The translations under genes were made by a program, and so were the position numbers. Below are positions 16,090 through 29,815 of a stretch of 64,000 bases of DNA, piece after piece. The notes below the pieces were generated by a model that was given only the letters and a program-made list of their open reading frames with translations, had not been told where the DNA came from and did no database searches. Source of the stretch: Gammaproteobacteria bacterium (lineage in GTDB: Bacteria > Pseudomonadota > Gammaproteobacteria > Steroidobacterales > Woeseiaceae); assembly GCA_029863305.1 (NCBI GenBank), contig JAOTVR010000002.1, forward strand, positions 1 to 64,000, read 5' to 3'. Within the stretch, counting starts at the first letter, position 1. Each line of letters opens with the position of its first letter.

Positions 16090-18039
<1,950 letters not shown>

Positions 18040-18043
18040 TCAA

Positions 18044-18550
18044 ATGCATAGCAGTAAAGCCGCGATCGAGCGGCGTCAGCGGTTTGATCAGTACGTGGGC
18101 GTTTACCATCAGGACATGTACCGCTACGCAGCCTGGCTGAGCCGGGACAAGGCGATAGCTGAGGACGTCGTGCAAGAGGCCCTGCTACGGGCCTGGAAAT
18201 CGCTGGATGCGCTGCGTGACGAATCGTCTGCCAGGCAATGGTTGCTGACGATCGTGAGGAGAGAAAACGCGCGCTACTTTGAGCGCAAACGGCTCGAAAC
18301 GGTCGATATTGACAATCTGACGGCGTCACAGGCGGCTCTGCTGGCAGAGCAGCCGAACGAAGAGCTCGATGACATGCGGCAGGCGATTTACGAACTGGAC
18401 GATGATTACCGCGAACCGCTCGTGCTACAGGTCCTGATGGGCTACAGCACGAACGAGATCGCAGAGCAGATGGAGCTGAAGCAAGGAGCGGTGCTGACAC
18501 GCTTGCACCGGGCGCGAGCAAAGCTCAGGGAACACATGGCACGACAATGA
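18044..18550 (+). CDS. ECF-type RNA polymerase sigma factor
   Basis: Group-4 sigma factor of 168 residues with region 2 (YRYAAWLSRDKAIAEDVVQE and ALLRAWKSL) and region 4 (GYSTNEIAEQMELKQGAVLT), joined by a short linker. No extra domains. It overlaps the anti-sigma gene by 4 bases and heads the operon that ends in the HvfA-like peptide. ECF factors usually drive their own operon, so the peptide is its likely target. No convincing ECF-type -35/-10 pair was found in the 121-base upstream gap. Confidence 0.93.
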   Translation: MHSSKAAIERRQRFDQYVGVYHQDMYRYAAWLSRDKAIAEDVVQEALLRAWKSLDALRDESSARQWLLTIVRRENARYFERKRLETVDIDNLTASQAALLAEQPNEELDDMRQAIYELDDDYREPLVLQVLMGYSTNEIAEQMELKQGAVLTRLHRARAKLREHMARQ

Positions 18551-19263
18551 ATTGTGAAGACTACAGAGAAGCGATAGCAGCAGACCCGTCCTTCGACGGC
18601 GGGGCCGGGCACCTCACGGAATGTGCCGCCTGCCAGGCGTATCGCGCCGAGATGCAAGCGCTTGATGATGCGATCAGCCGCGCGCTTGCGCTCGAGGTGC
18701 CCGCTCTTCGCATGCCGGAATTGCCCGAGTTGTCTCAGTCCGGGTCCGACAATGTGATCGCGCTGCCGAAACGGAAGTGGGTGACTCCAAGCTGGTTTGC
18801 GGTTGCTGCGACGGTCGTTGTTGCTGCGGTGCTGGGTGTGCGCCTGATCGGTACGGGCATAGAACACGAGTCGTTGGCTGACGAAATCCTCGCCCACCTC
18901 GACCACGAACCTTATGCGCTGCGTGTTACCGACGTGGCGATAACGGATGAGCGACTCAATTCAGTCGTGAGCGCCGACGTCGCACGAGTGGATCGCAGCG
19001 TCGGGCTGATCTCGTATGCCCAGAATTGTGTGATCAATGGTCACGATGTGCCGCATCTCGTCATCCAGGGCGAGCGCGGACCGGTGACCATTTTGCTGAT
19101 GCCTGAGGAGATGCTGGACGGTCCGCAGTCGATAACAGGCGACAGCATCAATGGCGTCATTTTGCCGGTGGGTAACGGCAGTATTGCGATCCTCGGTGAA
19201 AGCGAAGAAAACCTCGACAGAATCGAGCAACAGGTTTTGAAAACGGTAGTGTGGAGCACATAA
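18547..19263 (+). CDS. DUF3379-type zinc anti-sigma factor
   Basis: Membrane protein of 238 residues. The N-terminal cytoplasmic part carries H22-x3-C26-x2-C29, the zinc-binding anti-sigma signature. One membrane helix follows at about 81-103, then a periplasmic domain of about 135 residues of the DUF3379 type. It should hold the sigma factor inactive at the membrane until a periplasmic signal arrives. The ATGA overlap with the sigma gene and a 63-base gap to the peptide gene place it in the same operon. The nature of the signal is unknown; metal stress is suggested only by the peptide. Confidence 0.85.
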   Translation: MNCEDYREAIAADPSFDGGAGHLTECAACQAYRAEMQALDDAISRALALEVPALRMPELPELSQSGSDNVIALPKRKWVTPSWFAVAATVVVAAVLGVRLIGTGIEHESLADEILAHLDHEPYALRVTDVAITDERLNSVVSADVARVDRSVGLISYAQNCVINGHDVPHLVIQGERGPVTILLMPEEMLDGPQSITGDSINGVILPVGNGSIAILGESEENLDRIEQQVLKTVVWST

Positions 19264-19285
19264 GCAATGCACTGCCTGAGAAGCT

Positions 19286-19298
19286 GCCCGGCTCGGGC
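19286..19298. repeat. Small hairpin between anti-sigma and peptide genes
   Basis: GCCCG (19286-19290) pairs with CGGGC (19294-19298) across a 3-base loop, about 15 bases before the peptide ribosome site. It may be an mRNA processing point that lets the peptide be made in excess of the regulators; no T-run follows. Confidence 0.3.
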
Positions 19299-19312
19299 GA
19301 ACAACCCCTAGT

Positions 19313-19317
19313 AGGAG
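19313..19317 (+). promoter_or_regulatory. Strong ribosome binding site of the HvfA-like gene
   Basis: A perfect AGGAG lies nine bases before the ATG at 19327, followed by a purine-rich spacer (AGAGAGAAA). This is among the best ribosome sites in the window and suggests abundant translation. Confidence 0.75.
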
Positions 19318-19326
19318 AGAGAGAAA

Positions 19327-19713
19327 ATGTCAGAGAAAAAAGTAGTTAAGCCAATCGCTCTAGCTGTGGGCGCTGCCCTTGCTGGTTCTTTCGCGCTGTC
19401 CAGCAGCATTGCCAGTGCCGATACGGTCGAGAGCCCGTTCGCAATGTCAACGCTGAGTGCCGGCTATATGCTGGGTGCGGGCGAAGGCTCGTGCGGCGGC
19501 GACAAAGAGAAAAAGGAAGGTGAAGCGTCCTGTGGTGGCGACAAGGAAGGTGAAGCGTCCTGTGGTGGCGACAAGGAAGGCGAAGCGTCCTGTGGCGGCG
19601 ATAAGGAAGGCGAAGCCTCTTGTGGCGGCGACAAGGAAGGCGAAGCCTCTTGTGGCGGCGATAAGGAAGCTGAAGGCGCATGCGGTGAAGGCTCTTGCGG
19701 TGGCTCTGTCTGA
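19327..19713 (+). CDS. HvfA-like RiPP metallophore (bufferin-type) precursor peptide
   Basis: Exported peptide of 128 residues. Residues 1-31 form a signal peptide (KKVVKPIALAVGAALAGSFA). A short core, SPFAMSTLSAGYML (36-49), is followed by a cysteine-rich tail. The tail has EGSCGGDK (53-60), five copies of EGEASCGGDK (64-113) and a closing EGACGEGSCGG (116-126), eight cysteines in all. From memory, the leader, the core and the EGxCG motifs match HvfA-family precursors. In those, cysteines are turned into oxazolone/thioamide groups by a DUF692 (MNIO) enzyme with a DUF2063 partner, and the product binds copper. Neither modifying enzyme is encoded in this window. Family likeness is fairly strong; modification here is inference. 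Confidence 0.8.
   Translation: MSEKKVVKPIALAVGAALAGSFALSSSIASADTVESPFAMSTLSAGYMLGAGEGSCGGDKEKKEGEASCGGDKEGEASCGGDKEGEASCGGDKEGEASCGGDKEGEASCGGDKEAEGACGEGSCGGSV
19516..19665 (+). repeat. Five tandem 30-bp coding repeats
   Basis: Five in-frame copies of a 30-base unit encoding EGEASCGGDK. Copies differ mainly at third codon positions (GGT/GGC, GCG/GCC, TCC/TCT, GAC/GAT), so the protein repeat is kept while the DNA drifts. This points to selection on the peptide. Confidence 0.92.
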
Positions 19714-19744
19714 TCACTGGCAAGCTCTGCTCACAAATGCAGAC

Positions 19745-19775
19745 AAAAGCCCGCGCAGTGCGCGGGCTTTTTTTT
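19745..19775 (+). terminator. Rho-independent terminator after the HvfA-like gene
   Basis: An 8-bp perfect GC stem (GCCCGCGC/GCGCGGGC, 19749-19756 and 19760-19767) with a 3-base loop is followed by eight T. Four A precede it, so weak action on the other strand is possible. It closes the sigma/anti-sigma/peptide operon 31 bases after the stop. Confidence 0.95.
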
Positions 19776-29338: not shown

Positions 29339-29815
29339 TCAGTGTATCGAGCCGGTACTCTCTTCAAAAACAAGGTCCTCCATGCGCGCATAGGCCAGCT
29401 CCTGTCCCGGCTGACTGAACAGGACCATTAGTACGACCCACTTGATTTGCTCGACGTCAATGTCGGTTGACTCCAGCGCAAGTAATCGGTCGACCAGGAT
29501 CTCGCGTTGTGTCGGCGAAAGAATGCCGATTTGCTCGAGGTAAGTAATATAGCCACGATTGGCGGAGTCGAGGCGCTCATGCTCGAAGTCGTTGTAGATG
29601 CGCGTGCCATGCGCGGTCTGTGCATTGAATGCAAGACCGTTCTGATGGTCCGTCAATCCATCGAGCCATTCCAGCGCGCGGTCTATCTCGAGGTCGGCAA
29701 AACCTGCCCGCGAAAGTTCGTCGCGCAGTTCGTTGTGATCGGCTTCGGGTTCTTCATCGGTGTCGACGTAAGTCTCAAAAAGATACATCAGTACGTCGAG
29801 TACATTTTCTTTCAT
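29339..29815 (-). CDS. smg: Smg family protein (DUF494)
   Basis: Small helical protein of 158 residues of the DUF494/Smg family, found beside dprA and topA across gammaproteobacteria. The start MKENVLDVLMYLFETYVD and the segment IEQ...VVLMVLFSQPGQE are typical. The ATG at 29815 is chosen; the longer frame runs back into the end of dprA. Function is not established. It lies 40 bases after dprA. Confidence 0.92.
   Translation of the reverse strand: MKENVLDVLMYLFETYVDTDEEPEADHNELRDELSRAGFADLEIDRALEWLDGLTDHQNGLAFNAQTAHGTRIYNDFEHERLDSANRGYITYLEQIGILSPTQREILVDRLLALESTDIDVEQIKWVVLMVLFSQPGQELAYARMEDLVFEESTGSIH

Follow-up and report, generated by a model that had tools for sequence, protein, structure and literature searches.

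Which enzymes act on a precursor peptide whose gene has none of them beside it, and what could switch gene and enzymes on together? This question is raised by a locus in the first 64,000 nucleotides of contig JAOTVR010000002.1 (assembly GCA_029863305.1, a gammaproteobacterium of the Woeseiaceae), a stretch that we call the window. Three plus-strand genes at 18044–19713 encode an extracytoplasmic function (ECF) sigma factor, a DUF3379 anti-sigma factor and an exported-type cysteine-repeat peptide resembling HvfA, the precursor of a ribosomally synthesised and post-translationally modified peptide (RiPP). Our analysis favours, with a probability of about 0.74, a split ECF regulon that makes a periplasmic metal or thiol peptide, modified by a multinuclear non-haem iron-dependent oxidative enzyme (MNIO), under envelope metal or oxidant stress. 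One stress signal would probably turn on the precursor and its unlinked enzymes together, as judged from the promoter-like sequence that they share. The features of the locus are as follows.

18011–18036, plus strand: putative ECF promoter, GTAATAAA-N14-GGTC, 7 nt before the sigma start codon (motif match)
18044–18550, plus strand: ECF sigma factor, 168 aa (PF04542, PF08281 and NF009170 above cut-off)
18547–19263, plus strand: DUF3379 anti-sigma factor, 238 aa (PF11859 at 4.1e-29, conservation, AlphaFold2 model)
19327–19713, plus strand: predicted HvfA/oxazolin-type precursor, 128 aa, with signal-like segment, conserved leader and eight ExxCG pentads
19513–19669, plus strand: 30-bp tandem repeat coding EGEASCGGDK-type units (Tandem Repeats Finder, 5.2 copies, 94% matches)
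19745–19775, plus strand: intrinsic terminator ending the operon (RNA fold, hairpin with T run)

A preliminary description of this DNA had noted that the expected modifying genes were missing locally and might lie elsewhere, and had called the precursor an orphan. The former is correct and the label is not, since an MNIO-DUF2063-DoxX operon with the same promoter-like motif is present in the genome. In the host assembly (4.25 Mb, 200 contigs) there is a single PF05114 (MNIO) gene, hvfB, on another contig (C130), followed directly by the only DUF2063 gene and then by a DoxX gene; the genome search for DUF692 (MNIO) and DUF2063 suggested earlier thus returned one gene of each, adjacent to one another. 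The hvfB product scores 327.6 bits against a PF05114 cut-off of 25, with 3BWW as its best PDB match (2.4e-73). Upstream lie DUF1841 and nth genes, with a gap of only ~30 bp between DUF1841 and hvfB. A precursor hidden beside hvfB was considered and rejected, given this gap and a pattern search that found no open reading frame with a cysteine pentad in 30 MNIO loci. Within our family sample of 107 Woeseiaceae genomes, 30 further MNIO loci comprise 25 orthologs (71–88% identity) and five paralogs (33–39%); nth is upstream in 23 of the 25 orthologs, the other two being cut. In a single-contig genome (G105), the triad and the MNIO locus are far apart, at 0.10 and 2.48 Mb.

The two loci are joined by the motif. 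Its strict form, GTAATAWW-N14-GGTC, stands upstream of the sigma gene in 83 of 85 family loci and a looser form in all 85, with a GGTC-to-ATG distance of 7 nt in 80 of them, suggesting that transcription of the sigma gene starts at or near the start codon. The same boxes, at the same spacing, precede hvfB in all 25 orthologs with upstream sequence (the host and 24 others; one additional ortholog came without any), and none of the five MNIO paralogs has the motif in the 150 bp upstream. Only three strict sites exist in the host genome, before sigma-hvfA, hvfBC-doxX and an AhpC/TSA-type redoxin gene (reversed pattern, 0), and the longer pattern GTAATAAA-N14-GGTCW (13 positions, one mismatch) finds the sigma-hvfA and hvfBC-doxX sites only (reversed control, 1). 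Across the 107 genomes, 317 motif sites compare with 51 reversed controls.

Modification in trans is favoured over an unmodified peptide, two options between which the preliminary description had not chosen. The stress circuit that it proposed gains strength from the shared motif, but the peptide does not stand as its sole output, as hvfBC-doxX and the redoxin gene carry the motif too. In the mechanism we propose, the DUF3379 anti-sigma factor would hold the ECF sigma factor at the membrane, and its C-terminal domain, presumably periplasmic and containing H117, C161 and H170, would sense metal or oxidant stress. The freed sigma factor may then recognise GTAATAWW-N14-GGTC and drive its own operon with hvfA, the unlinked hvfBC-doxX and the gene of the apparently exported redoxin. 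HvfBC would modify the ExxCG cysteines in trans, most likely to 5-thiooxazoles by homology to HvfA and FonA, and the peptide, presumably exported by Sec, could serve as a periplasmic buffer for copper, a similar soft metal or thiol oxidants. Hvf and Fon products have both been reported as 5-thiooxazoles (PMC13419390, PMC13097082).

All eight cysteines of the window peptide fall in ExxCG pentads (EGSCG twice, EASCG five times, EGACG once), some of them within the 30-bp tandem repeat. The same holds for 687 of the 689 cysteines that follow residue 35 in 82 family peptides; among non-cysteine positions, 66 of 6979 are flanked by E at −3 and G at +1. A hydrophobic, signal-like N-terminus is kept across these peptides, and export is predicted; behind it, SPFAMSTLSAGYML is the conserved leader and the ExxCG repeat is the core, which replaces the earlier assignment of leader and core. 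Repeated E-small-x-C-G pentads on an exported-type peptide and a leader homologous to that of precursors adjoining hvfBC both speak for the HvfA class, of which adjacent MNIO and DUF2063 genes are a further mark; here, both genes are present but on another contig. Two properties weigh against this assignment: the window peptide lacks EGKCG and hence a Lys-Cys core (31 of the 82 family peptides have at least one EGKCG), and the earlier proposal of a match to an HvfA profile is borne out at a sub-threshold level only, with 15.9 bits against the cut-off of 19.5 of NCBIfam model NF050137. This low score, like the low-complexity repeat, would suit a repeat protein with a general envelope-stress or structural role and only a compositional likeness to HvfA. 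We consider such a protein highly improbable, as EGKCG precursors beside hvfBC are among the matches of the leader profile, and eight of ten tested relatives exceed the NF050137 cut-off (none of the ten passes NF050188, cut-off 95). Judged by leader and pentads, the window peptide appears to be HvfA-type, with Ser/Ala-Cys for Lys-Cys, although it is not a proven oxazolin.

The substitution at pentad position 3 also bears on whether the peptide is modified at all. Across the 82 family peptides this position is mostly Ser rather than Lys (561 Ser, 62 Lys, 34 Ala and 16 Thr; n = 688), which would be compatible with a peptide that works unmodified, its free thiols buffering metal or oxidants while hvfBC-doxX acts elsewhere or is vestigial. 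FonBC tolerates Ala, Arg and Thr at position 3 and does not tolerate Phe or Glu, and it accepts Gly or Ala at position 5 (PMC13097082). The family pentad residues fit this published tolerance; Ser, however, is not found among the position 3 substitutions tested in the available text of that paper, a gap that tells against modification. So do three family genomes (G035, G063 and G087) that keep the peptide with no MNIO or DUF2063 match, one of which, G063, is listed as 100% complete. The lack of hvfB in G035 may be assembly loss, because the motif beside nth in this genome sits at a contig end. In the host genome we found no second leader-profile match and no DUF2282 precursor (the latter occurs in 4 of the 107 family genomes). 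A second HvfA-type precursor was dismissed, as the sole other NF050137 match overlaps, on contig C135, a frame that we take to be proA-like. No other HvfA-type or DUF2282 precursor was thus found in the host genome by a search that did not extend to Buf2-type precursors, and Buf2-type substrates that hvfBC may have would likewise favour an unmodified peptide. Nevertheless, free thiols should have no need of a near-invariant pentad context, precursors adjoining hvfBC have the leader in common with the window peptide, the same motif precedes hvfB, and the search just described gave no other precursor. We regard an unmodified peptide as unlikely.

Modification in trans is also suggested by the location of related precursors in other families. 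A search with the family leader profile gave matches at E ≤ 0.01 in 105 of the 367 genomes that belong to the class but not to the Woeseiaceae. Among 28 such loci returned, read with flanks of ~1.5 kb on each side, an MNIO gene flanks the leader in 16, nth in 14 and both in nine; six have neither, and two more show a weak or no MNIO match where the contig ends. Since a precursor with a homologous leader often adjoins hvfBC and nth elsewhere, we interpret hvfA as displaced and the enzyme locus as syntenic. Gene order elsewhere is often nth ... hvfA-hvfB-hvfC, and hvfA appears to have left that place in the Woeseiaceae. One genome outside the family (G244) holds all parts in one locus, with the sigma and DUF3379 genes divergent from an EGSCG precursor that is followed by hvfBC-doxX. 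In a second (G286), sigma, DUF3379 and an EGKCG precursor form a triad, and the 14 kb read around it contain no MNIO gene.

As the preliminary description had stated, the HvfA-like precursor is the third gene of a sigma/zinc-type anti-sigma operon with a strong terminator, which is supported by gene content, the fold of the terminator and recurrence in the family. Besides the window, 89 DUF3379 loci were read in the family sample, and the peptide lies directly downstream of DUF3379 at 84 of them (83 genomes). The remaining five are G001, which has no peptide, three loci truncated where their contigs end (G021, G079 and the second one in G009) and an unrelated match (second locus in G027). A leader-profile search fetched 80 loci. 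Sigma and DUF3379 matches are present in 76 of them, and the remaining four begin at a contig end or close to one, three with part of the anti-sigma gene and one with nothing. DUF3379 and MNIO each occur in 87 of the 107 genomes (both in 82, neither in 15), and the complete triad in 84, host included, 81 of which have an MNIO gene. Peptide and MNIO co-occur with a Fisher p of 4e-12 over the 107 genomes, a value to be read with the caveat that the genomes are related and hence not independent, and that small ones lack all parts. In line with this, the association of DUF3379 with MNIO has a p of only 0.013 among genomes of at least 2.1 Mb, and co-occurrence of triad and enzymes is partly genome reduction; five family genomes, moreover, have MNIO without DUF3379, and these points reduce the support that co-occurrence lends to a split regulon. 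G001 (98% complete) keeps sigma and DUF3379 with neither peptide nor MNIO, and has no strict motif site.

A further alternative accepts the enzymes and questions their control: a different regulator could bind the motif, or the similarity of the hvfBC-doxX promoter could be purely ancestral, without joint control by this sigma factor. Motif and sigma factor are linked by sequence, and several results point in this direction. By full-matrix score the host hvfB site reaches 4.0, against a median of 42 for the sigma sites, so that only the core boxes are common to both. Outside the family the motif is patchy: of 35 loci in which a sigma gene was detected, only nine have a looser GTAAT-N17-GGTC close to its start, and this looser form is not near the sigma gene in G244 (locus L203) or G286 (L212). 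Of 41 further sites read (40 hand-picked and the third site of the host, with Pfam run on one member per kind), 11 of the 40 precede four thiamine-enzyme-like genes, presumably acetolactate-synthase-like, and seven unrelated or unclear genes; three of the four thiamine-enzyme-like gene sites score below zero. Against separate control stand the ECF-like spacing of the boxes, GTAATA-N16-GGTC, comparable to GTAACC-N16-CGAA of Caulobacter SigF (PMC3511200), the occurrence of the motif at the sigma gene itself (83/85) and before only three genes genome-wide, and the lack of strict sites in G001, which has neither peptide nor MNIO. Separate control therefore seems quite unlikely to us, and joint control by the sigma factor remains the preferred interpretation.

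Redoxin orthologs, the host gene counted, follow 14 of these 41 sites (51–69% identity to the host redoxin), and DUF547-like genes follow four, small peptides ending in RNDI three, YHS-like genes two, thioredoxin-like genes two and a DUF1223 gene one. Single sites precede a molybdopterin oxidoreductase, which we take to be of the MsrP type, a DoxX gene in G046 and a Cys-rich precursor with a second MNIO gene in G011, and one lies beside nth in G035. The RNDI peptides, of 65–67 aa, stand behind the motif in three genomes (L229, L239 and L245); Pfam gave no match for the one tested or for the G011 Cys-rich precursor. The latter, encoded with its MNIO paralog behind the motif (L261) and to our eye bufferin-2-like, may be a second RiPP in the regulon. 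In the 1.5-Mb genome of G046, which has no DUF3379, MNIO or DUF2063 match, the DoxX gene begins 137 bp after the motif (L236) and is possibly a remnant of hvfBC-doxX. A low-scoring site in G006 (L258) precedes a gene that looks to us like a different sigma factor, and a one-mismatch copy of the motif occurs in the window at 29544–29569.

The anti-sigma factor of the window matches DUF3379 (PF11859) with 102 bits against a cut-off of 33.2, and carries near its N-terminus the H-x3-C-x2-C signature of zinc-type anti-sigma (ZAS) factors, as H22-x3-C26-x2-C29. These residues are kept in 30, 31 and 31 of 31 family rows and in 24, 24 and 24 of 27 others. In the AlphaFold2 model (mean predicted local distance difference test score, 89), a hydrophobic helix at residues 81–102 probably forms a membrane anchor. 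In the C-terminal domain, H117, C161 and H170 are present in 31 of 31 family rows and in 22, 25 and 23 of the 27 others. A sensor role and membrane topology are proposed for the protein. A PDB search with this domain returned nothing at E ≤ 0.001, RseB appearing at E 0.057 and above. DUF1109 (NrsF) was not among the Pfam matches of the protein, which sets it apart from SigF-NrsF systems. Outside the family, MNIO genes were found in the stretch read (~8 kb on each side where the contig allows) around 11 of the best 40 of 50 DUF3379 matches over cut-off; about one or fewer would be predicted by a rough estimate from the one to four MNIO genes per ~3-Mb genome of the family, used in place of a matched control.

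Peptides of this kind are already known to come under ECF control. In Haemophilus, RpoE2 controls a DoxX/COG3220/DUF2063 operon under HOCl (PMC7907618). The H. influenzae HvfA-HvfBC-HvfX system shares with ours a Cys-repeat precursor with a secretion signal, an MNIO with a DUF2063/RiPP recognition element (RRE) partner and a DoxX-like protein; under RpoE2/HrsE control, its operon depends on an ECF sigma factor whose anti-sigma factor has ZAS residues (PMC13419390, PMC7907618). In Haemophilus, however, the enzymes and the precursor, which has EGKCG as its motif, are encoded together, and a 67-aa cytoplasmic protein is the anti-sigma factor, whereas the Woeseiaceae have the precursor in the sigma operon with unlinked enzymes, EGSCG/EASCG pentads and an anti-sigma factor of the DUF3379 family that has a further domain at its C-terminus. 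Fontiphorin FonABC and the captophorins resemble the window peptide in their ExxCG repeats, with a tolerant position 3 and a small position 5, but FonABC has a Lys-Cys core and a contiguous cluster (PMC13097082). In Caulobacter, two DUF2282-DUF692-DUF2063 operons together with a YedY-type gene are under the control of SigF. This system is alike in having an ECF regulon of DUF692/DUF2063/DoxX operons with a YedY-type oxidoreductase, the GTAACC-N16-CGAA promoter and a membrane anti-sigma factor, NrsF, with cysteines thought to face the periplasm; there, by contrast, the DUF2282 bufferins adjoin the enzymes and the anti-sigma factor is of the DUF1109 rather than the DUF3379 family (PMC3511200). 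The Buf_EGKCG/oxazolin group of an MNIO landscape study is the same precursor class, and sizeable shares of Buf1 and Buf2 precursors are unlinked to MNIO genes; Buf1 clusters contain sigma and NrsF genes, and no DUF3379 pairing was found in the text available (PMC12452194). In the literature that we searched, there was no DUF3379 control, no sigma-operon precursor with distant enzymes and no Ser-Cys class, nor the word DUF3379 itself.

From these data it is tempting to generalise, albeit at odds somewhat short of even, that sigma/DUF3379 pairs form an unrecognised class of dedicated switches for MNIO-made metal peptides across the Gammaproteobacteria. The Woeseiaceae switch might then have captured the precursor and would run the distant enzymes through a shared promoter to yield a Ser-Cys captophorin, with the Cys/His residues of the anti-sigma factor and the peptide competing for the same metal or oxidant in direct feedback. 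Our reading suggests a function for DUF3379 anti-sigma factors and links a precursor to MNIO operons that lack an adjacent one. About 4,000 MNIO enzymes lack an adjoining precursor of the four known groups, and hundreds of these have other small Cys-containing open reading frames (PMC12452194); split systems, if true, would explain part of the MNIO operons without a neighbouring precursor, and RiPP mining that relies on gene clusters can overlook products whose two loci are tied together by one regulator. With the motif at hand the regulon can be tested, and the Ser-Cys pentads probe which substrates MNIO enzymes accept. The Woeseiaceae occur widely in marine sediment. In seawater, copper surfaces have been reported to carry Woeseia as one of their dominant groups (PMC6917582).

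Within the operon, the sigma factor matches the Pfam Sigma70_r2 and r4_2 models above cut-off and NF009170 of NCBIfam with 199.3 bits (cut-off 197); the anti-sigma frame overlaps that of the sigma factor by 4 bp, and the peptide gene starts after a gap of 63 bp. A sigma-70 promoter scan gave no match, and a simple terminator scan did not list the terminator at 19745–19775, probably because its T run pairs into the stem. Its hairpin folds at −24.5 kcal/mol (z −4.23), with 2 of 200 shuffles equal or better. The operon is flanked upstream by a divergent hemB (ALAD) gene and downstream by a methyladenine glycosylase gene. Between hemB and sigma, ~90 to 60 bp before the latter, lies a block, TTTTCCCTGTATTTAG-N4-GGTTTCNACG, at 17954–17983, which is unique in the window and whose first 15 bases recur with at most two mismatches in 76 of 85 family upstream regions. 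This block is possibly the site of a second regulator or the hemB promoter.

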